Position numbers and translations under genes: made by a program. From Bacillota bacterium (GTDB taxonomy: Bacteria; Bacillota; Sulfobacillia; JAJYWN01): a DNA stretch of 55,439 nt. Within the stretch, counting starts at the first letter, position 1. Each line of letters begins with the position of its first letter. The DNA lies in assembly GCA_021791495.1 (NCBI GenBank), contig JAJYWN010000009.1, forward strand, positions 1 through 55,439, in the 5' to 3' direction. Shown here one piece after another: positions 7,782-29,862 of this stretch. The notes beneath the pieces were generated by a model. The model worked only from the letters and a program-made list of their open reading frames with translations. It was not told where the DNA came from and did no database searches.

Positions 7782-10352
7782 TTAGAGGTGTCCGTGCTTT
7801 TTCCGGCGTTTGCGAGAACGTTTCTTCGGCGGGGATAGCTCCACCTCAGGCCCGTCGTCAGTCTCCTCCATAAGATCATCGTCAGGTTCGTCCTCAAGCT
7901 CCTCCCGAGGCGGCCCTTCAGGTGACTCTCCAGGCGGCTCGTCTTGAGTACCCTCTCCCCGAATCGACTCCTCCGGCTCGGGTCCGGACGCCTGTGGGGT
8001 TTCTCCGGCGACGTCGACAGCTTCCCCCTGGTCGGCCGCCTCCGGAGCCCCCGGCCCCGGTGAGGCCTGATCGGCCGGGTGACCTGTGGCCGCTTGCTCG
8101 GCGGCGCTGGAGGCGGCGATGGCTTCGCGGAGTTCCGCTACCCAAGGTATCTCCGCCAGCGCGAAGCACTGCCTGATTGTGACCACAGATAGGCGGTACG
8201 GGTCGCTCGTGGTCACGAAGGGCAGAGAAGCCTCCCCCGGAAGACCCTCGATACCCGTGGGGGACTCCGTCGCCCAGAACATCGCCGACGCCGGGGGGGT
8301 GCCGAGGATGCCGACGATCCTCGGGAGCCTGAGGCAGGGGTGAACGTGCCCAAGCTGCTGTCTTCCCCATTGGATGGTGGCGTCCTTATGCTCACCCGTC
8401 AGGTAGCCGGCAAAGGCCTTCTGCACCAGTTCCCTGGACGTTTCTTCCGCCGAATCCAAGGCTCTTTCGGTCAGGTCCTTCGCCGTAACGGACTTCCATC
8501 TGGCTCCGGCCCACCCCGCAAAGCCGAGGACGGCCTGGGCGTCCTCGACCAGATGCCCGGCCATGGCCGCGACACCGACGTCGTCAAGACAGCAGGTAGT
8601 CGTCGAGCTACGATGGGACTCCCGGGCGGTCGCCTGCTCCCGCAGGGATGATTCCGCCTTGTTCAGTTCTCCCACTAGACGGGTCACGGCCGTCCGTTCG
8701 GCTTGGGTGACCTCGGAAGCTTGTTTTAGGATACCGGATAGAGTCTGGTGGAGCAAGGCGTTCCCAGTGTGCGCATACTTGTCGACGATTTCCTGGAGGT
8801 ACCCGTCTTTCTTGGCTTTCAGCCTGCCGGAAGTCACGATGAGTCCGACGGTATGATTGACCGCTCCCAGCACGGCGACGACAAGGAATACCAGAAGGCC
8901 GAAGGTCACGGCGGGAGGGCGATCACGGACCCCCATATTGAACAGAGTCGAGAACAAGGGACCGAGAGACAAGGCCCCCACCCAGTTCCGGATGAACATG
9001 GCCGCATAGCCCAAACCCAGGGCGCTCACCAGAGTCCCCACGAAAAGCGGAAAGGACCGCGACATCGACCCTCCCAGCCGCCGCAGGTCGTTTCTGAACA
9101 CCTCACCCCGGTCACTCGATAGGTGCCCCTCCAGTGCCGCCGCATTCAGGCTCTCTTCACGCGCCCGGGTCTTCTGCCGGCCCTCCAGGTCCTCCAGCCA
9201 TTGCTTCAGAACGACAGGCTTCGTGCTACCCGACACCAGGAGCTGATCGACATCGTCGCCCAGTCCTTTGCCATAACGGGCGACCTTGGCCTCGGCAAAG
9301 GCGGCGAAAGCACGTCTCAGTTTCCCAACGTACCAGATACCCAGCTCGGTATCCCAGGTGGCAATCTCGTTGTGCCAGACCGCCGGGTTATGGTCGCTGA
9401 GGAAGGGCCGGCGGTTCAGTGCTCCCTGGTGCTGTTCCAGGATTTGGCTCAACTCACCCACCGCGGATTCGAGCGGAGCCGCGGTCTCGGCCATCTTAGG
9501 TGGCAAGAGGCCTCGCCCCTGACTCCGTTCGGGCTTGGCCCCTGAGGCATCCGCCTCCTGGTCTAGCTGAGTCTGATCGCGGATGCTCAAATGGGCAAGC
9601 TTGCGGGCGATGATCCGCCGCATGGTCATGACCGGGAACGCATAGGTGCGGAGGCCGAAGGTCGCGTAGTTCAGAGCGACCTTGCCGTCGCTTCCGCCGG
9701 AAAGACTGTACTCGTAGGACGCGTCGGCGGTGACCGCCGGGACTGGTTGGAGGTAGGTCCGCAGGGCTTCGTCACCGGCAAAGCTGGAGAACACAAGGAG
9801 GGAAAGAAACTGGGCTGTCGCGTCCAGAAGGTCCGCTTGGGGCAAGATCCCAACGTCTTCTAACTCCCGCGACGCCAGGAAGACCTTGGCCAGTACGTCG
9901 CCGCACGCCAGCCCCTCTAAGGCCGACAGACGGGCGTTCAGGTCCTGGGATTCCTTCCCCGGCTGATGGCTGTCGGGAAGCAGGGCGAGGCCGATAATCG
10001 GCTTCGTAAAGGCGGCGTAGGCGGCCGTGGCGACTTCGGAGAGGGCGTCCGACTGCGGGTCGGCCAGATCGGCAACGAGGTAAACATCGCAGGTCTGGCG
10101 GCTCAGGTAAGTGGGCACACGGACCGTGAACCCCTCCAGTTTGCCGAGCGCGTCCAGCTTCCTCTGGTCCAAAACGCCCATGCGGGCCGACCGCAGGTCC
10201 TCCGACAGGCCGGCCCGCCCCGGAGCAACGGTAATCGTGGCTACGATCTCCGAAACTTGTGGTGGAAGCAGCCGAAACGAGTCTCTCAGGAGATCCAGGA
10301 CCTCACTGCCCGCCGCACCAAAGCCGATGATAACCGAAGGCCTGATCTCCAA
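7782..10352 (-). CDS. diverged tubulin/FtsZ-like membrane-associated protein
   Basis: 856 aa. The N-terminus (SVIIGFGAAGSEVLDLL) looks like the first nucleotide-binding loop of the tubulin/FtsZ fold, as in the neighbouring gene, but I find no GGTG(S/A) loop further on, so GTP binding may be lost or altered. Hydrophobic segments at about residues 438-520 should anchor the protein in the membrane. A long helical middle follows, and the C-terminus (about 750-856) is Pro/Glu/Asp-rich and ends in a basic tail (KKRSRKRRKKHGHL). TTG start with a GAGAGG motif about ten bases upstream; the start is 4 bp past the previous stop, implying coupling. Likely a partner of the 969-aa tubulin-like protein. The family assignment is weaker than for that protein. 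Confidence 0.6.
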   Translation of the reverse strand: MEIRPSVIIGFGAAGSEVLDLLRDSFRLLPPQVSEIVATITVAPGRAGLSEDLRSARMGVLDQRKLDALGKLEGFTVRVPTYLSRQTCDVYLVADLADPQSDALSEVATAAYAAFTKPIIGLALLPDSHQPGKESQDLNARLSALEGLACGDVLAKVFLASRELEDVGILPQADLLDATAQFLSLLVFSSFAGDEALRTYLQPVPAVTADASYEYSLSGGSDGKVALNYATFGLRTYAFPVMTMRRIIARKLAHLSIRDQTQLDQEADASGAKPERSQGRGLLPPKMAETAAPLESAVGELSQILEQHQGALNRRPFLSDHNPAVWHNEIATWDTELGIWYVGKLRRAFAAFAEAKVARYGKGLGDDVDQLLVSGSTKPVVLKQWLEDLEGRQKTRAREESLNAAALEGHLSSDRGEVFRNDLRRLGGSMSRSFPLFVGTLVSALGLGYAAMFIRNWVGALSLGPLFSTLFNMGVRDRPPAVTFGLLVFLVVAVLGAVNHTVGLIVTSGRLKAKKDGYLQEIVDKYAHTGNALLHQTLSGILKQASEVTQAERTAVTRLVGELNKAESSLREQATARESHRSSTTTCCLDDVGVAAMAGHLVEDAQAVLGFAGWAGARWKSVTAKDLTERALDSAEETSRELVQKAFAGYLTGEHKDATIQWGRQQLGHVHPCLRLPRIVGILGTPPASAMFWATESPTGIEGLPGEASLPFVTTSDPYRLSVVTIRQCFALAEIPWVAELREAIAASSAAEQAATGHPADQASPGPGAPEAADQGEAVDVAGETPQASGPEPEESIRGEGTQDEPPGESPEGPPREELEDEPDDDLMEETDDGPEVELSPPKKRSRKRRKKHGHL

Positions 10353-13271: not shown

Positions 13272-16004
13272 TCACCTCCGCTGGTTCCTGTTTCGCAGGG
13301 AAGGGTTGTGATAGCGGAACTGATAAACGGTACCGCCGCATGCCAACCCGAATGTGTCTCCGTCATAGATGTCGGCCTGCTGCAGCCGCACCCCTCTGAC
13401 AGACAGGTCCACCGTCCCGTCGAGTCTCGTCAGGCGGATCGTCGATCGGCCTCCCGTCCCCTTGGCATGGGCTAGCCTGAGGGCTTGTGGCGCAAGCCCC
13501 TTCAGGAGAAGGTCGGCCTTCCTGGCGTCGCCGCCCAGAGTGACCCAGTTAGGGTGCAGAAGCAGCGATTTCCAGGCACGCACGGGGCTTTCAGTATGCC
13601 GCCGGGACAGCTCCACCACTGGAGCCGTGGTGCCTGTGCCGGAGACGTTCGCGCCGGCGATGGTGATGAGAGCAGGACCGGGCGGCGCCGCTTCCACCGC
13701 CGGCACGGGCGCAGGCGGCGAGGTCCCAATGATCGCCGGGACAATGTCCCAGGGGCTCACGGCTGCCGGCCCCGACGACAGATTTGCCGGGGAGGATCTG
13801 GGGGCCGCCACCGGCATGAGCCGCCCCCGGATCTTGGGAATCGCCAGCCACCTGGCGACTGAAGCCACCAGCAGCGCCAGCAAGGCGATGCCCAGGGCGA
13901 CCCAAACTTCACGCTGGTCCGCCAGCCAGCTGTTGAACACCAGAACGACCGGCAGTTCCAGTCTTTCGACCTGTTGATCCTTGACTGCCAGGGCTCTGAC
14001 ACCCGGAGGCGGCGTTATCGCCAGCGTGGCGCGGTACCGCCGGCTGAAGAAGAAACTGGGACGCGCCTGGGGAGCCGGAGTGAACTGGGCGATGAGATGC
14101 CCGGTTTCGGCCTTGGAGCCCGTGGCGCTATCGACCAGGACAAGGTTCGCCGGAAGGCTGGACGCCTTAGACCCTGAAACCATCGTCTGAAACTGGATCT
14201 TGCCGACATCCGGGTAGTTGCGGGCGGCCACCGGGACCACGGCCCGAAGCGGACTGCCTTTCGAGGCCAGCTTGTAGGGCCATACCACCACCCACTTGCT
14301 CGTGGTTGTCCGGACTTCGACCGGCTTTACGTCAAGGACCACGGGACGGTCACGATACCCGTCCACCACCACCGACGCCTGGTATCGCCCCGCCGGCTTG
14401 CCCGACGGCCCTTGGTCCTGGTACACGATGGAGTAGGAACGGTCCGCGCCGGGGGCGGCGTCGGTCAGAAAGACTTCCCGGCCATCCGGCAGGCTGAGCA
14501 GAAGACTCGGCGGCGAGCCGGCTCCGGCCCCGGCACTGGTCCCGGTCCTCTTCACCGTGAAGTTTACCGGGTCATAGGTGTTGGCTGGGCTCGGCCGCCA
14601 GTCGAGGACGGCGTGCTTCGGCTCCACTTTCACATAACTGAACGCTTCGCGAATCGGGTCGACCCGGCCCGGCGAATCGTACCAGAGCCCAAATCTGGCT
14701 ATGTACGAGCCCGGAGGTAGCGATGCCGTGGCGAGGGTGCTGGTGAAGATGTTCGACCCCTTCTTCTCGGCCGCCAGATCGACGGGCTGGGCGCGCCCAT
14801 CGCGACCGGCCAGCGGCTTGCCGTCTTCGGTGAGAAGCTCAGCCGTGACCCTTGTCTTAGCCAACACGCTGGAGATCAAAGGACGTCCCTGCCGGTCGTA
14901 GACGCCAAGCTTGGCGCGAAGGTCCTGCCCCTCTTCCAGAACGACATTGCTACTCGGTTCCTGGAGGATGAGCTGAAGATCGACCTTCTCCACCACCCAC
15001 GCCGCACCCGCCACTTGTCCGGTTTGCTCCACCTTCCAGATGCCTGGGGCCGGGCGCGCCACGGTGTGGACCACGTAGTTCGGCCCGTGCTGTTGACCCT
15101 GGGTTTCGACGGTGGAGGTGAAGGACACCGCGTTCTTGGGCGTTTTCAAGGTGATGCCACCCTGTGTCTTGGGCGGTTTGACGGCCAAGACCGAGAAGCG
15201 TGACGTGGCATCGATGACCGGTATATCCCCTTGGCTAACGCTCAGGAGGTTCAGAGCCTTGATTGACTTCAGCGTATTCAAGAAGGCCTTTGGCAGGTCG
15301 TCGGCCCTGGTCACCCTCTGCGGGTACGGCGCGCCGGTCTGATCGGCCAGGCTTTTCAGCCATTCATAGTCGGCCCCAGGGCCCAGGGCGATGGAGAGGA
15401 GTTTAATCTTCCCCGCGAATTCCGGGATGATCTGGGTGTTTATCTCCGTCATCTGGCTTGCCCTGTTCTTATCTCCAATCCCTTCGGGCTGACCGTCGGT
15501 CAGCATGACGATGAACTTGGGAGAATCGCCCTGGGACTGGCTCAGTTCCATACCCGCCTCTCTCAGAGCATCGACCATATTCGTGTTCTCGTCCGTGGCC
15601 GTGGGCCACTTGTCGAGTTCCTGTTTGAGGGCTCGGCGGGCATCGGCGCCGCCGATTCGGGAGAACTGGCCGATCACGTGGTTCCTATCTCCGAAAAGAA
15701 CGACCCCAAGGTTATCGAAATCGTCCAAAAGGTCGATGAAAGCCAGTGCCGCCGTGATACGGTAGTCCTTAGGGTCGCTGGGAGGGTCTCCCCTCTTATC
15801 CATGCTGCCGGAGTTGTCGATGAGCAGCACGACGTCGACCGGGCGGTCCCCCGGAGCTGTTTGGTTGCCATTCCCGCGTCCTAACCCAAGTCGGCCGGTG
15901 AGGCCAGAGAGGCTTGCTCCCAAGCTAGAACAAGACGTAGCTGTGGCAATCAGGGTAGCCGTAAACAAAGACAATAATGCCACCAGAGCAACTCGTCGGA
16001 GCAA
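13272..16004 (-). CDS. vWA-domain membrane protein with C-terminal FHA-like domain
   Basis: 910 aa, first gene of the four-gene operon. Residues 1-25 form a signal sequence with a possible lipobox (ATSC, Cys25). The vWA domain follows (about 55-250) with a full MIDAS: DNSGS near residue 62, a Thr in TDENTNM and the Asp of LTDGQPEG. Then come beta-rich, probably extracytoplasmic domains (about 260-690), one membrane helix (VWVALGIALLALLVASV, about 698-722), a Pro/Ala linker and a C-terminal domain (about 810-905). The elements VTLGG and YDGDTFGLACGGTVYQF resemble a forkhead-associated fold. So an outside sensor or adhesion domain appears linked to an inside phosphopeptide-binding-like domain. 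TTG start preceded by GGGGGGAAC; the true start could shift slightly. Confidence 0.75.
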   Translation of the reverse strand: MLRRVALVALLSLFTATLIATATSCSSLGASLSGLTGRLGLGRGNGNQTAPGDRPVDVVLLIDNSGSMDKRGDPPSDPKDYRITAALAFIDLLDDFDNLGVVLFGDRNHVIGQFSRIGGADARRALKQELDKWPTATDENTNMVDALREAGMELSQSQGDSPKFIVMLTDGQPEGIGDKNRASQMTEINTQIIPEFAGKIKLLSIALGPGADYEWLKSLADQTGAPYPQRVTRADDLPKAFLNTLKSIKALNLLSVSQGDIPVIDATSRFSVLAVKPPKTQGGITLKTPKNAVSFTSTVETQGQQHGPNYVVHTVARPAPGIWKVEQTGQVAGAAWVVEKVDLQLILQEPSSNVVLEEGQDLRAKLGVYDRQGRPLISSVLAKTRVTAELLTEDGKPLAGRDGRAQPVDLAAEKKGSNIFTSTLATASLPPGSYIARFGLWYDSPGRVDPIREAFSYVKVEPKHAVLDWRPSPANTYDPVNFTVKRTGTSAGAGAGSPPSLLLSLPDGREVFLTDAAPGADRSYSIVYQDQGPSGKPAGRYQASVVVDGYRDRPVVLDVKPVEVRTTTSKWVVVWPYKLASKGSPLRAVVPVAARNYPDVGKIQFQTMVSGSKASSLPANLVLVDSATGSKAETGHLIAQFTPAPQARPSFFFSRRYRATLAITPPPGVRALAVKDQQVERLELPVVLVFNSWLADQREVWVALGIALLALLVASVARWLAIPKIRGRLMPVAAPRSSPANLSSGPAAVSPWDIVPAIIGTSPPAPVPAVEAAPPGPALITIAGANVSGTGTTAPVVELSRRHTESPVRAWKSLLLHPNWVTLGGDARKADLLLKGLAPQALRLAHAKGTGGRSTIRLTRLDGTVDLSVRGVRLQQADIYDGDTFGLACGGTVYQFRYHNPSLRNRNQRR

Positions 16005-16198
16005 ACCCCGTTCCCCCCAAAAAGCACCGCGGGCACCCCAGGTACAACCCCAATACCATGCAGGTCCCTATTGCAATAGTGGATTCGGTCTCCGGCCGGT
16101 GAGAGCGAAAGGTCCCCGTGGACCTAGGGACGCAACTCGGCTCTGTGGTATTCGTTTAGATTTGTTCCATTCCTGCCAATATCCGACATCATAGTTGT
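16005..16198. other. upstream region of the vWA/tubulin-like operon
   Basis: Should carry the leftward operon promoter. I see only a perfect 10-bp palindrome TATTGCAATA at 16069-16078, with a poor -10/-35 arrangement around it. No gene is supported here. Confidence 0.3.
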
Positions 16199-16511
16199 CT
16201 AATGGATGAAGAGGAAACGTCGTCCAGAAAGATGACAGAGTCCTTTCGGGGGGTAGGGAGGAAAGGCTTTGGAAGTGATAGGACCCGGGGCAAGGCGGTA
16301 CTGGAGCTCGGTACAGGAGCTCGGTATTGCTGTCATATCGGATCTGGAGGGTGTCGCCTCTGACCCCCTTGCGGTCGACGTTCCGGAAGCTGGCGGTAAA
16401 GGGCCTGCCATCGTAAACCAAGAGGGCCCGGCGGGACTCCCCGCGCGCCAATTTCAGGCGGTCGTGCCGTGCGAACTCCTCGGTGGCACTGGGCGCAATT
16501 GAGGCTAAAGA
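16199..16511 (-). pseudogene. remnant of a gene's 3' end, frameshifted by a 13-bp duplication
   Basis: Reading leftward, the frame from 16511 to about 16310 has protein-like sequence (including EEFARHDRLKLARG, FTASFRNVDRKGV and DTLQIRYDSNTELL) but begins right after a stop codon and has no start with a ribosome-binding site, so the 5' part is missing. An 11-bp direct repeat at 16303-16313 and 16316-16326 (period 13) shifts the frame; removing one unit would join it to the frame that stops at 16199. I do not recognise the family. It is probably a decayed gene left by rearrangement at the edge of the A+T-richer island. Confidence 0.35.
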
Positions 16512-16586
16512 TTAACCAAGAACCAAGGTGACATCTTCAAGGATAATGGTTTGCAGGCACACTTCCTGTGAGGCGACGACGCTCTA

Positions 16587-16615
16587 TTGCCCTGTAGTCC
16601 GCAGCGTTGTATAAT
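16587..16615 (+). promoter_or_regulatory. sigma-A-like promoter, TTGCCC-17-TATAAT
   Basis: A perfect TATAAT at 16610-16615 preceded at exactly 17 bp by TTGCCC (16587-16592). Transcription would start near 16622 and run rightward into a hairpin at 16671-16688, giving either a short RNA of about 70-80 nt or an attenuated leader for the island genes further right. Confidence 0.55.
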
Positions 16616-16670
16616 GATGGCAAATCTGCACTGGCGTTCCCAGAGGATGTCCAGTTATTAATGCGAGAGA

Positions 16671-16688
16671 GACCGCCTTTCGGCGGCC
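16671..16688. terminator. strong hairpin, probably bidirectional terminator
   Basis: On the minus strand GGCCGCC-GAAA-GGCGGUC forms a 7-bp stem with one G.U pair and a stable GNRA-type tetraloop. On the plus strand the same position has an A/C mismatch, so the fold is better leftward. Flanking GAG/CTC can extend it. It lies 11 bp beyond the stop of the leftward hypothetical ORF ending at 16699 and about 50 nt downstream of the rightward promoter at 16587. Confidence 0.5.
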
Positions 16689-16698
16689 TTCTCACTTT

Positions 16699-17112
16699 CT
16701 ACGGGTGTTTTATCTGGGATACCTCGTCAATGACCGCCCGAGTTATCTCCTCTCTCTCATCCGCAGCGTCCCACAACTGAGAGTGATACGTGCCTCTATC
16801 GACGTTAAGTACCTTGAGGAGATCAGGGAAGACCTTGAGGCCGTCAAGCCATCGTAGCGCGGGAAGCAACTGAGGGTGATTGGGTAGGTTCCGAGGATTT
16901 CTGGAAAGCCATGGACGAGGTAACGCCGAAGTAGTCGCGTGGGCACGCCGTACGTGTTGGACCACAGAGTCCTGAGCATAGACAGACTGGCTCTTCGTTC
17001 GGTCTTCGGCACTCCAGATCGCTGGGAGTCTATGGCGAAGGAACTTGAGAACACACTCGCCGCCCTTCAGAAGAACCCGAGCAAAGGTGACGTTCTCATG
17101 CGCGCCCTCCAT
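16699..17112 (-). CDS. hypothetical protein, possibly a fragment
   Basis: 137 aa, no family recognised. The C-terminal half reads like real protein with balanced codon use (for example WLDGLKVFPDLLKVLNVDRG and REEITRAVIDEV), and the hairpin at 16671-16688 sits just after its stop as a terminator would. No ribosome-binding site supports a start, and it overlaps, in antisense, the rightward ORF starting at 16939; only one of the two is likely to be real over 16939-17112. It may be the tail of a truncated gene. Confidence 0.35.
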   Translation of the reverse strand: MEGAHENVTFARVLLKGGECVLKFLRHRLPAIWSAEDRTKSQSVYAQDSVVQHVRRAHATTSALPRPWLSRNPRNLPNHPQLLPALRWLDGLKVFPDLLKVLNVDRGTYHSQLWDAADEREEITRAVIDEVSQIKHP

Positions 17113-17562
17113 AAATGGCGCCGTGTGAAATGGGCGTCAAGACCTAGCGGCTATGAGGACATGCCGCGAGAGTGTGTGCACGATGAGCACGTGGTATGCT
17201 CCTGCTACCAGCGAGTTTTGGCCAATCTGGCGAGGTGTGGTCTAGTGAGAGGACGGCCCAAGTCCCGGTCCAAGGCGCAGATGGTGGTTCAACGTGATCA
17301 GCCCGGTGAACCGTGTGGGATAGTGGACTTGAGCGGTCTGACGGATAAGTCGGGCATGAGCAACGTGGAATGGCCGATAGTGGTTCGGGAGAATGACCAG
17401 GATGTTCTGGGTGCTACTGTCCAGGGACGTGCTAGAGGGCCTAACGTGGTGGGCCTCGTTGACCCCTGCTCCGTGATCGGTTCCGAACGAGAAGTCGCAG
17501 TTCTCACTGCGGCCGGACGTCAAGGACAAGATACGACAGACTTCTCTGTTCGTTTGCTTTGA
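16939..17562 (+). CDS. hypothetical protein upstream of the phosphoesterase/ATPase operon
   Basis: 207 aa, unrecognised. The middle part (residues about 32-115) is helical and ends in a segment that could be a winged helix (QRVLANLARCGLVRGR). The last 80 residues are featureless. GTG start at 16939 without a ribosome-binding site; an internal ATG at 17032 has GGGAG only three bases away. Codon use resembles the island genes. The stop is 79 bp before the phosphoesterase start, on the same strand, so it could be the first island gene or a decayed one. It conflicts with the leftward ORF ending at 16699. Confidence 0.35.
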   Translation: MGTPYVLDHRVLSIDRLALRSVFGTPDRWESMAKELENTLAALQKNPSKGDVLMRALHKWRRVKWASRPSGYEDMPRECVHDEHVVCSCYQRVLANLARCGLVRGRPKSRSKAQMVVQRDQPGEPCGIVDLSGLTDKSGMSNVEWPIVVRENDQDVLGATVQGRARGPNVVGLVDPCSVIGSEREVAVLTAAGRQGQDTTDFSVRLL

Positions 17563-17641
17563 CTTAAGAGTCTGTGAAGGAACGTAATGGAGGATATTGA
17601 AACAATCAGGTATTAACAAGCAAAGTATGGAGATGCGTGTC

Positions 17642-18877
17642 ATGGCTCTGCCGAGTCTTAAGCTGCTTCAAATCGGTGACATTCATTGGCCAGGGGCTGA
17701 CCCCAGAGGCGTCGATTCCAAAGACGCTGGCTTTGACCCAGTGTTGGGGAATAGGCTAGTGCCAAATGCCACCCAAGTGGTTCTCCGCCATCTGATGTCA
17801 GAATCGTACCACCCGGACGCAATTGTCCTGATGGGTGACCTGGCCGACAAAGGAGCTATTACTTCCTATCAGGAGTGTTTGGACAAGATCATAACGGTTT
17901 TTGGAGATGACCTTTTCAAGATCCTGATAGCGTGTGGGAACCATGATGTTGACCGGTCTCGGTGTTCTGACAACGACCTCTTTCAGAAATTCGACCCTCT
18001 CAATGATGTGATTCGGCATAGGTCATTGCCAGAGATGTCTACGCGTGCTCCAGTGTTCCTGCCACTGACGGGGCAAGGCCACCAAGCGATACTCGTCAGT
18101 CTCAACTCATGCATGGGGTGCGGTGTCAAGCGACGGTTTATAAACCAACGTCCGCCCAAAGCTCTTGAGTGGTACACAGCGTATCGGTTCAGAGCTATGG
18201 ACCGAAGGAAGGATCGATCAAGGTTTGAGGAACTTGACACCCCAGCGTTCCATGGTGACCATCTCCTGGCGGCTAGGTCACAGATTCAGCAGGAGGCTCT
18301 CAGCGTTCTGCCAATTGTCGTGGCGCATCATAACATCCTTCCTCAGGAGACTCCTCGCCTTATGGCATACGGGGAATTAGTCAATGGCGGCTTGGCCCGC
18401 AGTTATCTCCTCTCACTAGACAGACCGATCCTATACCTTCACGGTCACATACATGAAGACCCGATTGAAGTGGTAGCCACCCCAGGCAAACAGCATAGTC
18501 GTTTGATAACGGTTTCGGCACCACCTCTGCGTGATGGCTTTAACATGCTGACCGTGGAGTATAGTTCATCTGGTTATCCGCTTGGGTGCCGAGTTGACTC
18601 ATGGCGACGCGAGCGCGGCGGATGTGTGAGTAAGGCGGCCGAGATCCGAGTTAGGTTTTGGGAACCAGGCGATGCGTCAGCTGTTCTGAGCCCCCAAACG
18701 TTAGCAATCATGCGATTTGTTGCTGGTCGCGGTGATCAGGAGTTCCATTTTTCCGATATCACCGAATCCGGTCTTGATATGCCGGACAGCCTTTTGGAGC
18801 TCGAGTGGCTAGGTCTCATAGAAATAACCAATAGACAGGGAGCGCCGTATTTGTGGTTGGTAAGGAGGTCTGCCTAA
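17642..18877 (+). CDS. calcineurin-like metallophosphoesterase with C-terminal winged-helix-like region
   Basis: 411 aa. All metallophosphoesterase motifs are visible: GDIH (Asp13, His15), MGDLADKG (Asp66), GNHD (about 99-102), VVAHHN and HGHIH (about 268-271), so a two-metal phosphodiesterase, nuclease or phosphatase centre is intact. The last about 70 residues (from ALIMRF-like IMRFVAGRGD to the end) look like a winged helix that could bind DNA or its partner. Starts: I prefer ATG 17642 with GGAG nine bases upstream; ATG 17627 or TTG 17597 (GGAGG three bases upstream) would add 5 or 15 residues. The stop overlaps the ATPase start (TAATG), so the two are translationally coupled. More A+T-rich than the flanking operons. 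A role in an antiviral or genome-maintenance system is inferred from the neighbours. Confidence 0.85.
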   Translation: MALPSLKLLQIGDIHWPGADPRGVDSKDAGFDPVLGNRLVPNATQVVLRHLMSESYHPDAIVLMGDLADKGAITSYQECLDKIITVFGDDLFKILIACGNHDVDRSRCSDNDLFQKFDPLNDVIRHRSLPEMSTRAPVFLPLTGQGHQAILVSLNSCMGCGVKRRFINQRPPKALEWYTAYRFRAMDRRKDRSRFEELDTPAFHGDHLLAARSQIQQEALSVLPIVVAHHNILPQETPRLMAYGELVNGGLARSYLLSLDRPILYLHGHIHEDPIEVVATPGKQHSRLITVSAPPLRDGFNMLTVEYSSSGYPLGCRVDSWRRERGGCVSKAAEIRVRFWEPGDASAVLSPQTLAIMRFVAGRGDQEFHFSDITESGLDMPDSLLELEWLGLIEITNRQGAPYLWLVRRSA

Positions 18878-20802
18878 TGGACTCGTCTCCGTTCTCCCCC
18901 TGGCGGAGTGAATACGAGGGCAAGCCTCCGATATGGTTGCCTCCCGATTTCTGGCAGCTTGAATCATCCCAACCAGTCTATCTCACGGGATCACGTGGAA
19001 CTGGCAAGACATTCTTACTTAGGGCAATGCATTGGCGAGAACGGTTGGAGAACCCTCACCTCAGAGAGGTATTGGGAGAACCGTTTGCAGGTCGGTACAT
19101 CGGCCTCTATCTGAAGATGCCTGATTTCATCGCCAAGAATTTTGCTAATTGGCCCCCCAAGCCGAGTGGCACGAGCGACGTCGCCTGGGAGGAGGTGCAA
19201 GGCCAGAGGTTTTCTTTGTATTTTGAGACCATATCGTTGTACTTGCTATGCGAGGCCACAGTAGAACTGAGAAGCAAGGCATTTCTGAAATACCATGCAA
19301 GTGATGAGCTCGAGACTGTTCGACGCATTCTTGACACTCGCCCGGAGATTCGGAATTTCATGATGCCAGGGAAAGATCGTTCTATCTATGACCTCTATCT
19401 TGCGTTCAAGAGGATGCAGGAGCAGATAAGATCAGCCGCACTATGGTCAGAAGCTAATCCGAATGCAAACCTCTTTCCTGGGCTTCAGATAGGGAAGTAC
19501 CTGAAGGAAGTCGGTTCGAGTGTTCTTTCGCTTTGCTCAAGAGGTGAGAGCGGTGATTGGAGAGCGAAGATCTGCATTGATGAAGCCGAGTGTCTGTCTG
19601 ATCTCCAGCAGAAGGTGATTAACACCCTGATCCGGGTAATTGAACACCCGATCTCAGTGAATGTCGCGTACGTCCGGCACAGATCAGACATAAGTTCGAC
19701 TTTCCTGCCAAATATGACTCTTGGTGATGCCGACCGAATGGTTAGGGACTTGGACAGGGAGTTCGAAGAGGAGGAAAAGAAGTTTCCGCAGCTGGCATGC
19801 GGAGTAGCCACAACCAGGTTCAGATCGAAGACAGGAATCCCAGACCTGGACCTCGGTACCATATTGGGCAAATACGACACCAATGAGCTTCTCGAGCATT
19901 ACTTGCGAAGATCGGAAAGCCCAGAGGCTGCGGAACTTCTGAAGGAAGGCGAGTCACTCTCGAACAAGCCGTTCTTCTCCGGTACGAGAAGGAAGGAAGG
20001 CGCTAGGGTCTACGAAGCGTACTTGATCCGGAAACTTGGGCTTTCCCTCAGTAACACGGAGGATCGGAAGAGGCGGCGCCTACTATCAAGTACGGAGATC
20101 CGCAAACGAAATGTTGCTGCATTACTGTGCGCGGTAAACGAGTATGGACATGGCCGTGTTCCGCTTGCCGGTCTCGACAAAGTGCTGTCCCTGTGTAACA
20201 ACCAAATCCGGGACTTTCTACGAGAGATGGATTGCTTGTTCGTGCGGTCTGGGAAGAATCCAGTAGTATTCAGCAGTTCCCTAATGAGCATTCAGGACCA
20301 GACCGAAGCCCTGGCTCGCGCGAGCAATAGTAAGTTCGAGAGCATCAGGAAATGGATCAAGGTAAACCCTGAGAAGGTCGAGGGGCTTGTGACAAGCCTA
20401 GGGCTGATCCTTGGGATGGTTCAGACGAATTACAGGAACCCGGAACAGACCCTTGGGACTAAGCCAGAGGCTGGGCGGATTGTGGTACGGAATGACGGGT
20501 CCGACGATTACGGAACCCTCATCTCTCTGGTCTTGGATGCCGAAGAGGGTGGGTTTGTTTCGACGACGACAGATGACAGCGGCAGGGTGGCTGAAATAAC
20601 CCTGCACCGGCTGTTTGCACCGCGTTTTGGGTTCTCATATAGGAAACCTCAATATGAGCTTTCTGTCCAACCGACTGATCTCCTGAATCTGATTCAGATG
20701 CCGGATGACCAAAAACGTAAAGGTGCGGAGCGTTTGGCAACCCCCCCACCGGAGAAAACGGGTCCTAGCCAAACCCAATTGAGTATTGAACTTACCGACT
20801 AA
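18877..20802 (+). CDS. ORC/CDC6-like P-loop ATPase
   Basis: 641 aa. Walker A GSRGTGKT at about 38-45, Walker B KICIDEAE at about 231-238; a helical lid region follows, then a winged-helix-like segment (about 411-455, starting RNVAALLCAVNEYG) and a C-terminal beta region with LHRLFAPRFGFSYR (about 567-580), a pattern I associate with ORC-CDC6-like ATPases found in defence islands. It probably uses ATP to load or signal to the phosphoesterase encoded just upstream. The ATG overlaps the upstream stop by one base (TAATG) and AAGGAGG lies eight bases before it; a longer GTG version starting at 18853 would bury that site. Not a known STAND or SMC type as far as I can see. Confidence 0.8.
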   Translation: MDSSPFSPWRSEYEGKPPIWLPPDFWQLESSQPVYLTGSRGTGKTFLLRAMHWRERLENPHLREVLGEPFAGRYIGLYLKMPDFIAKNFANWPPKPSGTSDVAWEEVQGQRFSLYFETISLYLLCEATVELRSKAFLKYHASDELETVRRILDTRPEIRNFMMPGKDRSIYDLYLAFKRMQEQIRSAALWSEANPNANLFPGLQIGKYLKEVGSSVLSLCSRGESGDWRAKICIDEAECLSDLQQKVINTLIRVIEHPISVNVAYVRHRSDISSTFLPNMTLGDADRMVRDLDREFEEEEKKFPQLACGVATTRFRSKTGIPDLDLGTILGKYDTNELLEHYLRRSESPEAAELLKEGESLSNKPFFSGTRRKEGARVYEAYLIRKLGLSLSNTEDRKRRRLLSSTEIRKRNVAALLCAVNEYGHGRVPLAGLDKVLSLCNNQIRDFLREMDCLFVRSGKNPVVFSSSLMSIQDQTEALARASNSKFESIRKWIKVNPEKVEGLVTSLGLILGMVQTNYRNPEQTLGTKPEAGRIVVRNDGSDDYGTLISLVLDAEEGGFVSTTTDDSGRVAEITLHRLFAPRFGFSYRKPQYELSVQPTDLLNLIQMPDDQKRKGAERLATPPPEKTGPSQTQLSIELTD

Positions 20803-20821
20803 ACCAGAGTGAGGGAGCACC

Positions 20822-21799
20822 ATGGACTTCAAGAAGGCGTTTCTAAGGGGTTCATCTTGGTATGGAAATACCAAGGATCTGACGCTAGGTACATTTGATC
20901 TGGGCTTCTTTGTGCCTTCTTGGGAAGAACGTTGCACTTCCATCACCACAGTCACAGACGCGGTCTTCGGGCAGGCCCAGATGATCAAGTTCGATAAGTC
21001 AACAGAGAGCTACGAGCACAGCCTTGATGAGTTCTTGCACCGTAGGTCGCGGAACGTGTTGTTGCAGATCTCTGGGTCAGTATCAGACCTTAGACCGTTA
21101 GGAGAGAGGATCCTGTCGAGTATTAGACAAACCCGTACTCTGAAGGGGCAAGCTCTCTCAGTATTCGTCGATATCTCGTGCTGCCCGCGGTATTTCCTGT
21201 TGTATGTCCTTGGAGCTTGTTTTCGCACTGGTTTGTGCAAGTCGGTTAGCCTGTTCTATGGCGAGGGGGAGTACGGCGAGAACGGTGGAGAATTCGTATT
21301 CACCGAAGGCGATTGGGAACTGGTAACAGTCCCCTTCTTCGAAGGCGAAGTTGATCCAGGGCGTAGGATGTACTACCTTGTTTCGGTCGGGTTTGAGGGG
21401 CGAAAGGCATTCCGTATGATGTCCAAGCTTGAGCCGGATAGGATATCAGTACTACTTCCGTACCCAGGGTTTAATGAACGATACTCTCAACAAGTCGTGG
21501 ATGAGAATGCAGCTTTAATACAGGAGTTCTCCGTGCCCGAAACCCAAGTGATCAGGGTTCCCGCTGGGGACGCCTTAGGCGCATGGGAAGCCACTAGCGC
21601 ACTTCAAACGAATCCGGATGAGAATCTGTCAGTCATATGCCTTGGCCCAAAACCACATAGCCTTGGTATCGGTCTCGCTGCGATAACCAATCCGAGAGTT
21701 CAGGTTCTTTACTGCAAGCCTTCAATGTTTCACAAACGAACGGTACGGCCTACAGGTTTCGCATGGTTCTACCAGATTACCGACCTATCAGCAATATGA
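20822..21799 (+). CDS. unknown island protein, third gene of the putative system
   Basis: 325 aa, no name I can support. Two parts: the N-terminal half with VFVDISCCPRYFLLYVLG (about 118-135) followed by a strand rich in Tyr/Glu (LFYGEGEYGENG), and a C-terminal Rossmann-like half starting LVSVGFEGRKAF with VLLPYPGF and LSVICLGPKPHSLG. The D-I-S-x-x-P-R motif and the GFEG-R-A motif look like conserved functional sites; I have an impression of similar proteins beside phosphoesterase/ATPase pairs, but cannot name a family. ATG with GAGGGAG a few bases upstream, 19 bp after the ATPase stop. No membrane segment. Confidence 0.7.
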   Translation: MDFKKAFLRGSSWYGNTKDLTLGTFDLGFFVPSWEERCTSITTVTDAVFGQAQMIKFDKSTESYEHSLDEFLHRRSRNVLLQISGSVSDLRPLGERILSSIRQTRTLKGQALSVFVDISCCPRYFLLYVLGACFRTGLCKSVSLFYGEGEYGENGGEFVFTEGDWELVTVPFFEGEVDPGRRMYYLVSVGFEGRKAFRMMSKLEPDRISVLLPYPGFNERYSQQVVDENAALIQEFSVPETQVIRVPAGDALGAWEATSALQTNPDENLSVICLGPKPHSLGIGLAAITNPRVQVLYCKPSMFHKRTVRPTGFAWFYQITDLSAI

Positions 21800-21851
21800 C
21801 CTCTGTAGTCGGGTTATGTTGTCACCAATTCGCTCTGTGGGGTAATCAAGG

Positions 21852-22652
21852 TTGCTTACCGATGAGAGTATCCCTTTCAAGTGGGCGGGAGGCAAGCGCT
21901 GGCTGTCAGGCTCGCTTGTGAGAGAATTCCCGAGGATTGGCGGTACGTACTATGAGCCTTTCGCAGGTGCCTGTGCAGTCTTCTTTGCTTTCGGCTACGT
22001 CCCTGCCAAGCTTTCAGATACTAATGCAGAATTGATCAACACGTTGAGAGTCATAAGAGATGCTCCGGAGATGCTGCTCTCATCCCTGAGTGGACTAGAC
22101 GTCAGTCGCGAGACGCATGCGCGTTTGCGTAGTACCATTCCCGCAGACTCAATACAACGAGCAGCACGGTTCATATACCTTGTTAATACTTCTTGGAACG
22201 GGTTATATCGGGTCAATAAGCAGGGTCAGTTCAATGTGCCTTTTGGCTGCAAACCAGGAACGTCAATGCCGAGCCCAAAGCGCATAGGGAGCGCCTCTGC
22301 CCTCCTTCGAGGTGTGGACATAGCATGCGAGGACTTTGAGGCGGCTGTAGAGGGAGCAAAACCTGGAGACCTTGTCTATTTCGATCCCCCATACACGGCC
22401 AAGCACGGTCCAAACGGTTTTCGCCGCTATAACCAGAGGATATTCTCCTGGTCCGACCAGATTCGGCTAGCTTCTTGCGCGGAGAGCTTGCGCCACCAGG
22501 GAGTGTTTACTGTGGTCAGTTCTCCCTATTCCCAGGATGTTCGGAACCTCTATCCAAGCTTTAGAGCGGTAGAATACGGAAGAGCAAGCTGCATTAGCGG
22601 CACCTCCAAGGGCCGAACCGATCTTCGCGAATATGTACTTTTCGGGTGGTGA
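21852..22652 (+). CDS. Dam-type (D12 class) DNA adenine N6-methyltransferase
   Basis: 266 aa. Has the D12-class signature set: FKWAGGKRWL at the N-terminus (SAM loop equivalent), YYEPFAGACAVFFAFG, and the catalytic YFDPPY motif (DPPY class) in the second half, then an SPYS segment near the C-terminus. It therefore methylates adenine in DNA; GATC is typical for the family but the target cannot be read here. TTG start at 21852 is forced: an in-frame stop lies nine bases upstream and no other start precedes the first motif. It is 52 bp downstream of the unknown gene in the same operon. It could mark self DNA for the phosphoesterase/ATPase pair, or be a solitary epigenetic enzyme. Confidence 0.9.
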   Translation: MLTDESIPFKWAGGKRWLSGSLVREFPRIGGTYYEPFAGACAVFFAFGYVPAKLSDTNAELINTLRVIRDAPEMLLSSLSGLDVSRETHARLRSTIPADSIQRAARFIYLVNTSWNGLYRVNKQGQFNVPFGCKPGTSMPSPKRIGSASALLRGVDIACEDFEAAVEGAKPGDLVYFDPPYTAKHGPNGFRRYNQRIFSWSDQIRLASCAESLRHQGVFTVVSSPYSQDVRNLYPSFRAVEYGRASCISGTSKGRTDLREYVLFGW

Positions 22653-25112: not shown

Positions 25113-28100
25113 CTAGTCCGACACGGCCAGGAACGCACCGGCGACCTTCGCCAGGAGTTGCTGGTCCTTGTAGTGCTGGAGCTGGATAGCCTTGGCCGGG
25201 CACTCGCCCGCGCAGGTCCCGCACCCCTGGCACATGACGGCTTCGATCTCCGCCGCGCCGTCTTTGTTGATCTTGGGAACGTTGAAGGGGCACACCCGCA
25301 CGCACGTGAGGCAGGCCGCGCACTTTTCCGGGTCCACCGTGGCGACGACGCCGCCCACCATCAGGTTCTTCTGCGACAGGATGTTCATGGCCCGCGCCAC
25401 CGCGCCCTGGGCCTGGTAGATGCTTTCCGTGGCGAACTTCGGCGAATGAGCTCCGCCGCACAGGAACACGCCCTGGCTGGGGAAGTCCATCGGCGCCAGC
25501 TTGGCGTGGGTCTCCATGAAAAACCCGTCCTCGTTCAAGGGGATCTTCAGCATGGTGCCCAGCTCCGCCGCACCCTCGTTCGGCACGGTGGCCGCCGCCA
25601 GCACCACCAGATCCGGCGAAAGCCGCAGTGTCTCGCCGGTGGTGGAATCATCCACCGTCACGGCCAGCCGCCCGCTGGGCAGCGCCTCTCTCGTGATCTC
25701 CGGCGGCTTGTCGTCGGGGAAGCGGATGAACATGACGCCCGCCTCGCGCGCCTTACGGTAGTAGTGCTCCATGAACCCGTAGGTCCGCATGTCGCGGAAC
25801 AGGATGTAGACCTCGGCCTTCGGGTTCCTCTTCTTCACCGCCAGGGCGTTCTTCACCGACTCGGCGCAGCAGGTGCGGCTGCAGTACTTGTGGTTATCGT
25901 CGCGCGAGCCCACGCACTGCACCATGACGATCTGCCGGGCCTGCGCCGTCCAGGGATCGCCCTCTTTCACCAATTCCTCGAACTCTAACCCCGTGATGAC
26001 GTCGTCGTCGGTGCCGTACATGTAGCTCTCCGGCCGCATCTCCTGCCCGCCAGTGGCCACCACCACGACACCGTGCTCCAGCTTCTGCATGGGCCGCGGC
26101 CCCGTGGACCCTTGCTCGCCCCACCCCAGACTGATGGTGGTGGTGAAAGCCCCGGCGTGCCCGCCGAAGTCCTCGATCCGGGCTTCGGTGAAGGTGTGGA
26201 TGAGCGGGTTGGTCTCCACCTGATGGATCAGGCCGTGCAGGTACCCCTGGATGTCCTCCGACTCCAAAGTGAAGTGCAGCCGCCGCAGGTTGCCGCCCAG
26301 CTCTTTCTCTTTCTCCAGCAGGTACGTCTCGATACCCTGGCCGGCGAAGGTCAAGGCCGCCGTCATGCCGGCCACCCCGCCTCCCACCACCAGGGCCCGC
26401 GGCGTGACCGGAACCGGCAGCAAGGTGAGGGGTTCGTGCCGCCGCACCTTACTAACGGCCATCCGTACCAGGTCCTTCGCCTTCGACGTGGCCAGCGCCG
26501 GGTTATCCCGGTGCACCCAGGAGCATTGGTCGCGGATGTTGGCCATCTCGAAGAGGAACTGGTTTAGCCCGCCCTCCCGCAGAGCCTCGCGGAAGAGGGG
26601 CTGGTGCGTCCGGATGGTGCAGCTGGCCACCACCACTCGGTTCAAGTTGTGTTCCTTGATGTGGGCGCTGATCTTGGCCAGGGTGTCCTGGGAACAGGTG
26701 AAAAGGTTGTCCTCCGCGACCACCACTCCCGGCAGCTTCTTGGCCGACTCGACCACGCCCTTGACGTCGACCACGCTGGCGATGTTGATGCCGCAGTGGC
26801 AGATGTAGACGCCTATGCGCGGCTCATCGCCCTTGACGTTGCGCTCCGGCGGGTAGACCTTGCGCCGCGCCATGGTGCCGCGCGCCCCCGCCAGCATCGC
26901 GCCGGCCTGGGCCGCCGCCGCGCTGGCGTTCATCACCGTCTCCGGAATATCGCGTGGCCCCTGGAAAGCGCCGGCCACGAAGACCCCGCGCCGCGACGTC
27001 TCCGTGGGGCGCGCCCAATGCGTCCAGGCGAACCCGTCCTCGTTCAGCCGGACCCCGGTCGCCTCAGCGAGCTGGGCCGCGGCCTTGGGCGGGCGCACGC
27101 CCACCGCCAGGACCACCAGATTGAAGGTCTCGCTGACGATCTCGCCGCCCGACAGGTACTTGATCACCAGATCGCCGGTGACCGGATCTTCCTTCACCGA
27201 CGAAATCATCCCCGACACATAGCGCACGCCGGTCTTCTTGGCCGAGTCCACGTAGCGGTCGAATCCCTTGCCGTAAGACCGCACATCAAGGTAGAAGATG
27301 GTCGGGTGCACCCGTTTGTCGTGCTCCCGGGCGATCAGCGCTTCCTTAGTCGAGTACATGCAGCAGATGGAGGAGCAATACCCCGCCCCGCCGTTGGCCG
27401 CCGCCTCGCCGCACTCGCGCGAGCCCACGCACTGGATGAAGGCGATCTTCTCGGGGACCTTATCGTCCGACAGCCGCTCGACGTGGCCTTTCGAAGGGCC
27501 CGTTGCCGAAAGCAGGCGCTCGAACTCCAGGCTGGTCATGACGTTCTGGTAGGTGCCGTACCCGTACTGGCCGCGGACATGCGGGTCGAACAGGTCATAT
27601 CCGGGGGCCAGAATGGCCGCCCCCACCGGCACTTCAACGATCTCTTCCTTATCGTCGTGGTGCACGGCCTTTTTCTGGCAAGCCGCCTCGCACTGGAGGC
27701 ACTCCGAACAAACGCCGCAGTTCAGGCAGCGCTTGGCCTCGGCGATGGCCGTCTCACGGTCATAGCCGATGAGCACCTCGCCGAAACTGGCCGTCCCTTC
27801 CTTCACCATCTCGGCCAACTGCGGGTTACGCCGTACCTGACGGCGCCGCCCCGGGGCGATGGCCACGTTATCCGGCACCGGGAGTTTCGGGGGCTTCGGC
27901 AGCCCGCGCCCGGCCCGCAAGTCGGTCCCGCGCAGATAGCGGTCGATGGAGATAGCCGCCTCGCGCCCCGACGCCACGCTGTCCACGATAGAGGCCGGCC
28001 CATTGACGGAGTCGCCGGCGGCGAAGACGCCTTCCACCGGTGTGCCCTTGGTGAGCGGATCTACCACGATGGTGCCCTGACGCGTGGCTTCCAGCCCTTC

Positions 28101-29849
28101 GAGCCCCTTCAAGAGCTCAAGGTCCGAAGTCTGGCCGATGGCCATGATGATGGTATCGCAGTCGAAGACCGTCTCCGACCCATCGATGAACTTAGGGTTG
28201 AAGCGGTGGTCGGCATCGAAGACCGAAGCGACCTTCAAGGTCTCGATGCCCTTCACCCACCCGTTTTCGTCGCCCAGGATGCGCTTCGGTCCGAAACGGT
28301 GGTGCATGATGATGCCCTCTTCGAGGGCCTCTTCCACTTCCCAGTCGTGGGCCGGCATCTCCTCGGGCGACTCCAGGCAGACCAGGTGCACTTCTTTCGC
28401 GCCCAGGCGCAAGGCCGAACGGGCCGCGTCCAAGGCCACCGTCTGGTCGGACTGCTGCCGTCCAAGGCGCAGGGCCGAGCGGGCCGCGTCGATGGCCACG
28501 TTGCCCCCACCGATGATGAGTACCTTCTCGCCCACCCGCGGCTGGCGCCCGAGGTTGATGTCGCGGAGGAAGTCCACGCCGTACATGACGCCCTTGGCGT
28601 CGGAGCCGTCAATGCGTAAGGAGCGGCTTTTCTGCATACCCACGGCCAACAGGATGGCCTGGTATCCATCGTCCCGCAGCTGCTGCAGGGTGATGTCTTT
28701 CCCCACCTGCACGCCGCCCCGGAACTGGATCCCATGGTCCAGGAGCCACTGCACCTCGCGGTCCAGCAGCTCATCGGAGAGCCGGTAACGCGGGATGCCG
28801 TAGCGCATCATCCCGCCGGGTTTCTCCATGGCGTCGAAGACGGTCACGGGGTACCCCAGTTTCGTCAGTTCATAGGCGGCCGTCAGGCCGGCCGGCCCGC
28901 CGCCCACCACCGCCACCTTCTCCGACCGGTCCAGGGAGGCCAGCTGCGGCTTGGCCGCTCCCTCCCAGCCGTAGTCGGCGGCCGCCCGCTTCAGAGCGGC
29001 GATGGAGATGGGGTCGTCGATGGTGCCGCGGTTGCATTCGCCCTCGCAGGGGTGATGGCAGACCCGGCCGCAAATGCCGGCAAAGGGCATATTCCGTCGG
29101 ACCACATCCAGGGCCTCGGAGAACTTACCCTGAGAGATCAGGGCCGTGTAGCCCTGGACGTTGCACCCGGCCGGACAGGTGTTCCGGCATGGCGGGATAC
29201 CCCGCTTCTCGATCAGATACTTATTGGGCACTGCCTGTGGAAAAAGCTTGTGGATGGCCTTACGGGACGAAAGCCCCTGGTTAAAGCGGTCGGCCACCTC
29301 GACCGGGCACACCGCCTCGCAGTCGCCGCAGGCCGTGCATTCCTTGATGTCCACGTACCGCGGGCGTTTCCGGATGGTGGCGGTGAAATTGCCGGCCTGC
29401 CCGTTCAGCTTCAAGAGATCCGAGTTTGTATACAGCTCGATGTTGGGATGGTTCTGGGTATCGGTCATCCGTGGGCCCATCAGGCACATGGCGCAGTCGT
29501 TGGTGGGGAAAGTCTTGTCTAGCTGCGACATCTTCCCGCCCACCGACGAGTCGGCGGTCACCAGATGCACCAGGTACCCGGCGTTGGCCAGGTCCAGGGA
29601 GGCCTGCATCCCGGCGATACCGGCCCCAAGAACCAGGACCGAACCGACCTTGGCCTTCCCCAACACCCCTTCGGTCTCGCCAGCGCCCGCGCCCGGCTTA
29701 ACGGCCGAAGCCGTCGCCACCGCCGCTCCTCCCGTGCCGCCGCTCCCAGCCCCCGCCCCGGTCCGCGGGCTGCCTCTGCGAGTGCCCCCGCGTCGGGCCG
29801 CTTCCGCTGCCAGAGGCCGCTTCTCCACGACTTCTTTCCCTACACTCAT
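25113..29849 (-). CDS. hdrA: giant HdrA: HdrA / NfnB(GltD)-like / HdrA fusion
   Basis: About 1578 aa, much longer than ordinary HdrA (roughly 650-1000). Order: Gly/Ala-rich leader (1-65); HdrA FAD loop LGAGIAGMQAS (about 70); ferredoxin-like CTACGDCEAVCP (about 170); NfnB/GltD-like Cys region CRNTCPAGCN (about 216); GltD FAD loop VVGGGPAGLTAA (about 311); NAD(P)H loop IIGGGNVAID (about 443); CLNCGVCSECLQC (about 706); remaining HdrA half with CVGSREC (about 804); a complete second HdrA with CHCG (about 1018), FAD loop VVGGGVAGMTAA (about 1150) and CVGSRDD; and two C-terminal [4Fe-4S] motifs (about 1507-1555). Such a build predicts NAD(P)H-linked flavin-based bifurcation coupled to MetFV. ATG 29849 has GAGGTG nine bases upstream; GTG 29861 is an alternative. 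A 20-residue internal duplication sits in the NAD(P)H domain. Confidence 0.92.
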   Translation of the reverse strand: MSVGKEVVEKRPLAAEAARRGGTRRGSPRTGAGAGSGGTGGAAVATASAVKPGAGAGETEGVLGKAKVGSVLVLGAGIAGMQASLDLANAGYLVHLVTADSSVGGKMSQLDKTFPTNDCAMCLMGPRMTDTQNHPNIELYTNSDLLKLNGQAGNFTATIRKRPRYVDIKECTACGDCEAVCPVEVADRFNQGLSSRKAIHKLFPQAVPNKYLIEKRGIPPCRNTCPAGCNVQGYTALISQGKFSEALDVVRRNMPFAGICGRVCHHPCEGECNRGTIDDPISIAALKRAAADYGWEGAAKPQLASLDRSEKVAVVGGGPAGLTAAYELTKLGYPVTVFDAMEKPGGMMRYGIPRYRLSDELLDREVQWLLDHGIQFRGGVQVGKDITLQQLRDDGYQAILLAVGMQKSRSLRIDGSDAKGVMYGVDFLRDINLGRQPRVGEKVLIIGGGNVAIDAARSALRLGRQQSDQTVALDAARSALRLGAKEVHLVCLESPEEMPAHDWEVEEALEEGIIMHHRFGPKRILGDENGWVKGIETLKVASVFDADHRFNPKFIDGSETVFDCDTIIMAIGQTSDLELLKGLEGLEATRQGTIVVDPLTKGTPVEGVFAAGDSVNGPASIVDSVASGREAAISIDRYLRGTDLRAGRGLPKPPKLPVPDNVAIAPGRRRQVRRNPQLAEMVKEGTASFGEVLIGYDRETAIAEAKRCLNCGVCSECLQCEAACQKKAVHHDDKEEIVEVPVGAAILAPGYDLFDPHVRGQYGYGTYQNVMTSLEFERLLSATGPSKGHVERLSDDKVPEKIAFIQCVGSRECGEAAANGGAGYCSSICCMYSTKEALIAREHDKRVHPTIFYLDVRSYGKGFDRYVDSAKKTGVRYVSGMISSVKEDPVTGDLVIKYLSGGEIVSETFNLVVLAVGVRPPKAAAQLAEATGVRLNEDGFAWTHWARPTETSRRGVFVAGAFQGPRDIPETVMNASAAAAQAGAMLAGARGTMARRKVYPPERNVKGDEPRIGVYICHCGINIASVVDVKGVVESAKKLPGVVVAEDNLFTCSQDTLAKISAHIKEHNLNRVVVASCTIRTHQPLFREALREGGLNQFLFEMANIRDQCSWVHRDNPALATSKAKDLVRMAVSKVRRHEPLTLLPVPVTPRALVVGGGVAGMTAALTFAGQGIETYLLEKEKELGGNLRRLHFTLESEDIQGYLHGLIHQVETNPLIHTFTEARIEDFGGHAGAFTTTISLGWGEQGSTGPRPMQKLEHGVVVVATGGQEMRPESYMYGTDDDVITGLEFEELVKEGDPWTAQARQIVMVQCVGSRDDNHKYCSRTCCAESVKNALAVKKRNPKAEVYILFRDMRTYGFMEHYYRKAREAGVMFIRFPDDKPPEITREALPSGRLAVTVDDSTTGETLRLSPDLVVLAAATVPNEGAAELGTMLKIPLNEDGFFMETHAKLAPMDFPSQGVFLCGGAHSPKFATESIYQAQGAVARAMNILSQKNLMVGGVVATVDPEKCAACLTCVRVCPFNVPKINKDGAAEIEAVMCQGCGTCAGECPAKAIQLQHYKDQQLLAKVAGAFLAVSD
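28405..28500 (-). repeat. 60-bp-period tandem duplication inside hdrA
   Basis: Two copies of about 35 bp, at 28405-28439 and 28465-28499, are nearly identical with a few substitutions and lie exactly 60 bp apart. In protein this duplicates (A)(I/L)DAARSALRLG with RQQSDQTV between, adding 20 residues in frame after the GGGNVAID nucleotide loop. NfnB/GltD relatives have, to my knowledge, a single copy. Confidence 0.75.
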
Positions 29850-29862
29850 CTGGGTGGCCACC

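Follow-up and report, generated by a model that had tools for sequence, protein, structure and literature searches.

Several described groups of prokaryotic immune proteins resemble parts of a four-gene cassette that we analyzed in a Bacillota bacterium (Sulfobacillia, JAJYWN01; contig JAJYWN010000009.1), where it occupies positions 17642-22652 of a 55,439-nucleotide stretch, referred to here as the window. The cassette encodes a metallophosphoesterase (MPE), an ORC/CDC6-like ATPase, a CARF6-family protein and a Dam-family DNA methylase, and forms one branch of a wider family of systems predicted to act against viruses. Calcineurin-CE, HD-CE and PRTase-CE were reportedly predicted by Nicastro et al. 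in 2023 (NAR 51:11479) to be nucleotide-targeting immune effectors, and it is presumably that study which gave PF24389 (ORC-CDC6-like), PF24390 (PRTase-CE), PF24391 (HD-CE) and PF24408 (wHTH-Calcineurin_assc) their names. All four families were found in the loci described below, but the window MPE itself matches only the general family PF00149. A census of CARF is said to have been made by Makarova et al. in 2020. The third cassette gene is matched by the PADLOC family CARF6; this name, however, denotes a domain family rather than an operon, and the gene carries no fused effector domain. Of these two studies, that of Nicastro et al. is cited in PMC10853773.

BREX and MADS are methylation-linked defence systems with STAND or ORC/Cdc6-type ATPases, and the cassette likewise combines a methylase with an ORC/Cdc6-type ATPase, whose predicted fold matches BrxC (Z ~10) and whose sequence gives a weak PADLOC match to mad8 (4.7e-4). 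Unlike them, it has no PglZ, kinase or other core genes, and its effector differs; no PADLOC BREX match was found among the four genes, which sets the cassette apart from the PglZ, BrxC and PglX set that marks BREX. The third gene product is predicted to share a CARF/SAVED-like fold with the CBASS effectors Cap4 and Cap5 and the CARF effectors of type III CRISPR, but the operon lacks a cyclase, keeps sensor and effector on separate proteins and adds an AAA+ ATPase. With no CD-NTase among the four genes, the cassette does not fit CBASS; with no restriction-endonuclease family found among them by profile searches, it does not fit type II restriction-modification either.

Results

The cassette consists of four intact open reading frames, all on the + strand and flanked by two leftward operons:

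17642..18877, + strand: gene 1, calcineurin-like MPE, 411 aa, predicted effector (PF00149, 7.2e-9)
18877..20802, + strand: gene 2, ORC/CDC6-like AAA+ ATPase, 641 aa, predicted sensor/switch (PF24389, 2.4e-52)
20822..21799, + strand: gene 3, CARF6-family protein, 325 aa, with two Rossmann-like (CARF) domains, predicted nucleotide sensor/regulator
21852..22652, + strand: gene 4, Dam-family N6-adenine DNA methyltransferase, 266 aa, TTG start, DPPY intact

The original prediction, made from the letters and translations of the window, had described these four rightward genes, their spacings and their catalytic motifs correctly. Successive genes are separated by exactly -1, +19 and +52 bp, and the translated reading frames retain the MPE motifs (GDIH, GD, GNHD, AHH and GHIH), the Walker A (GSRGTGKT) and Walker B (CIDEAE) motifs of the ATPase and the DPPY of the methylase. 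The catalytic residues of the MPE are invariant across seven aligned relatives, and a Shine-Dalgarno sequence (GGAGG) lies just 5' of the ATPase gene.

We surveyed 27 further loci (six plasmids and 21 genome contigs; loci are labelled L below). The MPE gene is followed by the ATPase gene in every one, and the CARF6 gene comes next in 26, overlapping or abutting and on one strand; three of the loci end at a contig end inside the MPE gene. This recurrence of gene order is far beyond chance. A neighbourhood survey of this kind, with Dam present or absent, had been put forward in the original prediction, which would have been undermined had homologues rarely been adjacent elsewhere; instead, 26 of 27 loci keep the order, and Dam accompanies it in two. 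In the exceptional locus (L062, 6989-8176), the ATPase frame is broken, no CARF6 gene was detected and the MPE gene is intact.

The same arrangement extends to a wider family. After strong PF24389 ATPases, a CARF6-like protein is nearly always the next gene, and the gene before the ATPase usually encodes an MPE, PRTase-CE (PF24390) or HD-CE (PF24391). In the ATPase tree, a single branch sets off the PRTase ATPases, and another the HD ATPases; for MPE, the divergent MPE locus L086 raises the number of changes to two. The original prediction could not match the combination to a named system, but the pairing of PF24389 with one of these three effectors relates it to named families.

Strong PF24389 ATPases are uncommon: full-length ones numbered three in 398 genomes of the window's own phylum. 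An ATPase alignment search found strong ones in 2 of 395 Desulfobacterota-side genomes, and the counts in two other phyla were 7/324 and 9/398, some of these partial. Weak PF24389 matches, mostly below 40 bits and spread over many genomes, resemble P-loop cross-matches and were not considered further. The 40 nearest genomes searched held no ATPase relative and hence no close copy of the cassette for comparison. Viral contigs yielded nothing when searched with the single ATPase sequence and two matches with the ATPase alignment; tblastn of the ATPase against phage records gave no match. Copies occur on many plasmids, on two IMG/VR contigs and also on large non-plasmid contigs, and one ATPase query matched 152 plasmid records, 129 of them from Klebsiella. 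The Klebsiella pneumoniae plasmid pKPHS2 (L102, KPHS_p200550 to KPHS_p200520) and L109 carry a methylase-PRTase-ATPase-CARF6 operon in which all genes but the methylase are annotated as hypothetical.

The ATPase had been called ORC-like from its sequence, and this is borne out by its match to PF24389 (178.9 bits against a gathering cut-off of 27, residues 20-592) and by its AF2 model (pLDDT 84.6), whose nearest folds are Cdc6/Orc1, MuB, BrxC and RFC (Z ~9-11). A sequence search of solved structures gave weak matches to ORC4 only. The C-terminal tail is predicted to be disordered (pLDDT <50 in the model) and ends close to a short motif:

20776..20793, + strand: QLSIEL at ATPase residues 634-639, a candidate motif for binding the beta-clamp (DnaN), within the disordered C-terminal tail

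The published consensus for clamp binding is QL[S/D]LF or QxxLF (PMC12309361), and Hda requires QLSLPL to bind the clamp (PMC3836487). The window ATPase carries an exposed-tail motif of the QxxLF or QxxLx(L/F) type, and the C-terminal peptides of the ATPases that were aligned first include QLSLPL, QGSLF and QMSLF. The plasmid homologue L037 has QLSLPL, the very motif of Hda; what differs from the peptides of Hda and polymerases is the setting, the C-terminus of an ATPase with a predicted role in defence. We scored the motif on new sequences only, using the last 30 residues of 29 representatives below 60% identity that have a CARF6 partner. The strict motif was present in 18 of the 29 tails, whereas 20,000 shuffles averaged 1.44 and never exceeded 7; internal windows of the ATPases gave a mean of 0.64, and the CARF6 tails 0/29. 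One of the 18 matches, in L108, is not terminal and probably should not count. From these sequence patterns we infer that the ATPase tail binds DnaN, although its partner may be something other than the clamp. The end of the Klebsiella ATPase differs from that of a near-identical Enterobacter ATPase, which ends in QLGLL, as if a frameshift had removed the clamp motif.

Gene 4 matches PF02086 (1.5e-41) and TIGR00571 (3.7e-51). Dam is the fourth gene in two of the 27 further loci, from metagenome-assembled genomes of a Desulfobacterales (L043) and a Planctomycetota (L044) bacterium, where it lies ~20-26 bp past CARF6. The viral contig L100 has the window's four-gene set, but its methylase (8945-9829) reads DAPY where the window's has DPPY; a second Dam-like gene lies upstream on this contig, at 2201-3091. 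The ATPases of the window, L043, L044 and L100 form one clade in a maximum-likelihood tree (support 99/97), and their Dams form a single clade in 76% of bootstrap trees, a phylogeny that is compatible with co-inheritance without being decisive. The window Dam scores ~200 bits against those of L043 and L044 and at most ~172 bits against any plasmid or phage Dam. Among the Dams outside the system, one of the nearest to the window's is on a Zymomonas plasmid (L117), next to a DGQHR-domain gene and a 440-aa protein of no assigned family, possibly as part of another defence module.

Methylases of other classes accompany the sister branches. A DNA methylase adjoins 14 of 17 PRTase or HD loci (in one, L108, on the opposite strand), and its class follows the effector, with N6 or N6/N4 enzymes next to PRTase and C5 enzymes next to HD. 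The divergent MPE locus L086 has a Dam gene upstream of the MPE gene. Since other methylase classes adjoin the sister branches, the partnership with a methylase is borne out and is more general than the original prediction could see; Dam as the fourth gene belongs to one sub-branch.

Gene 3, for which the original prediction had no name, can now be given one: it matches PADLOC CARF6 at 1.3e-22, the best of the 12 CARF6 models matched. No convincing match was found in Pfam, NCBIfam or PHROGs; one CARF6 model matches an MPE-type relative at 639 bits. Structure prediction had also been proposed for this protein; an AF2 model based on 18 sequences reaches a confident mean pLDDT of 91.1 and has two Rossmann-like domains. 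The C-terminal half resembles the CARF domain of Cam1 (Z 11.8, root-mean-square deviation 2.4 A over 112 residues) and Csm6 (Z 11.7), and the whole chain resembles the SAVED domains of Cap4, Cap5 and a SAVED-CHAT protein (Z ~8-9, ~200 residues). The top Foldseek matches by E-value, to KCC transporter domains and universal stress proteins, had TM-scores of ~0.3 or less and were not used. Gene 3 is thus predicted from its model to be a tandem-CARF, SAVED-like ligand-binding protein. Two motifs that had looked conserved in the original prediction, DISxxPR and GFEGRxA, proved to be so among 18 relatives, and a third lies in the C-terminal domain:

21170..21190, + strand: DISCCPR, residues 117-123, in the N-terminal CARF-like domain, on a loop that follows a core strand; D117 is invariant and P122 almost so
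21389..21409, + strand: GFEGRKA, residues 190-196, in the C-terminal CARF-like domain, on the loop that follows its first strand; G190 is invariant
21644..21661, + strand: GPKPHS, residues 275-280, also in the C-terminal domain, on a CARF-type loop; G275 and K277 are invariant

Because these loops follow core strands, where CARF proteins bind their ligands, D117, P122, G190, G275 and K277 would line a ligand pocket in the modelled fold.

The best NCBIfam scores of the window MPE, to a cAMP phosphodiesterase (8.7e-4), an anti-phage phosphoesterase (7.7e-4) and SbcD (0.14), are all far below the cut-offs. The wHTH model PF24408 matched the divergent relative L086 and not the window MPE, and a sequence search of solved structures gave a weak match to Lmo2642. 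Ten loci that cover all three effector types (L037, L041, L046, L047, L063, L085, L088, L089, L105 and L110) have a ThyX gene, identified by the RHRx7S motif, at a distance of ~2.5 kb or less from the gene for the ATPase or CARF6. In addition, L038 and L092 have a dGTPase gene nearby, L092 and L103 a dUTPase gene, and L043 a gene for a thymidylate-synthase-domain protein. Such neighbours fit, if indirectly, a nucleotide-attacking effector. Together with the replacement of the MPE by PRTase-CE or HD-CE, they are the grounds on which nucleotide destruction is ascribed to the MPE; hydrolysis of nucleotides is more probable for this enzyme than nuclease activity. The phosphoesterase had been proposed as the effector, and the swapping of this slot in sister branches agrees with that role. 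The neighbourhoods often hold defence genes as well (AbiE, an anti-phage dGTPase, restriction genes, NACHT and type I restriction-modification specificity genes), in keeping with the defence-island setting that had been expected.

As had been noted, the cassette is richer in A+T than its flanks, with a G+C content of ~0.51-0.54, whereas more distant sequence on either side has ~0.60-0.66. G+C starts to fall near 16,000, ahead of the MPE gene, and ~1.6 kb of low-G+C sequence at 16004-17642 holds no clear gene. Only the shift in composition speaks for an insertion between unrelated operons; a search around the cassette for a tRNA, flanking direct repeat or integrase found none, only short, chance-like repeats. 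The gene 3' of Dam is leftward and methylenetetrahydrofolate-reductase-like, and its operon adjoins the gene for a very large (1582 aa) fused protein that, judging from its sequence, is flavin/iron-sulfur HdrA-like (25113-29861, - strand).

Discussion

New in this analysis are a suggested clamp-docking tag on the ATPase and a recurring DNA-methylase partner. Our preferred reading, to which we give somewhat less than an even chance, is that of a modular, methylation-linked anti-invader system in which clamp-docked sensing triggers nucleotide destruction. It starts from the observed gene content, conservation, motif enrichment and methylase recurrence and from predicted folds, and each of its functional steps is conjectural. 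The Dam-type enzyme would mark the cell's own DNA, while the C-terminal QLSIEL would hold the ATPase on the DnaN sliding clamp at newly replicated DNA, where the ATPase would check for the methylation mark or for abnormal replication. The tandem-CARF protein, as predicted from its fold, would bind a nucleotide-type ligand and gate or tune the response with the ATPase. Once triggered, the two would release the MPE, and the resulting destruction of free nucleotides would halt replication and lead to abortive infection. A more specific version, which we regard as rather unlikely in its full form, is replication-coupled surveillance, in which a clamp-riding ATPase reads the co-encoded methylation and fires, via the CARF sensor, one of three interchangeable nucleotide-destroying effectors; this would combine self-recognition of the restriction-modification type with abortive infection.

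Several observations weigh against these readings. The strict clamp motif is absent from 11 of the 29 tails, including L101 and L100, the latter from the window's own clade; near-motifs are present among the misses (HMSLEL in L048, QLDLLI in L052, EPTLF in L086 and GPLF in L106). Half of the ten ThyX loci come from a single rhizobial clade, and PF00149 takes in nucleases as well. That the ATPase reads DNA methylation is itself a conjectural step. The strongest objection comes from an alphaproteobacterial MPE branch that has no adjacent methylase (in L047, a separate large reading frame with an NPPW motif lies 1.2 kb off). A co-encoded mark therefore cannot be the trigger in all members, and this branch has to rely on some other cue or on a mark made by the host.

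The MPE could instead be an SbcD/Mre11-type DNA nuclease that the ATPase loads onto unmethylated DNA, in a restriction-modification-like system in which Dam protects the host. MPEs are known to include such nucleases, ORC-like ATPases load factors on DNA, and a methylase is linked in four loci of one clade. However, most MPE loci have no methylase, the window MPE scores worse against SbcD than against the two phosphoesterase models (all far below cut-off), and the slot is elsewhere taken by PRTase-CE or HD-CE, for both of which nucleotides are the expected substrates. We consider this explanation improbable. We find it harder still to favour a three-gene core with Dam as an independent neighbour, an orphan or phage-type methylase, as the 52-bp gap, the TTG start, the alphaproteobacterial loci without Dam and the 76% recovery of a single Dam clade might suggest; Dam is placed alike in L043, L044 and L100, whose ATPases group with the window's, and methylases of other classes adjoin the sister branches.

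The many plasmid copies, the two on IMG/VR contigs and the clamp-binding-like tail of an ORC-like ATPase would also suit a module for maintenance or competition of mobile elements, by addiction or replication control, rather than anti-phage defence. Given that copies also lie on large non-plasmid contigs, among typical defence genes, we lend this idea little credence. Least probable, and very much so, is an ancillary effector operon whose CARF6 protein receives cyclic oligoadenylates from a type III CRISPR or CBASS system elsewhere in the cell: the predicted fold is like those of Csm6, Cam1, Cap4 and Cap5, but the window's genome (~97% complete; the Cmr2 model was not run) has no match to a Csm1-type Cas10 (TIGR02578) or SMODS CD-NTase (PF18144), and among 14 carrier genomes Csm1 exceeded its cut-off in two and CD-NTase in none.

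If the clamp motif works as the preferred reading of a methylation-linked, clamp-docked system has it, the ATPase would detect invaders by sitting on replicating DNA, which is directly testable. A conserved sensor pair on which both the methylase and the nucleotide effector can be exchanged would link the logic of restriction-modification to nucleotide-depletion immunity. As Klebsiella plasmids carry the PRTase relative together with a methylase, the class may also bear on the phage susceptibility of clinical strains.

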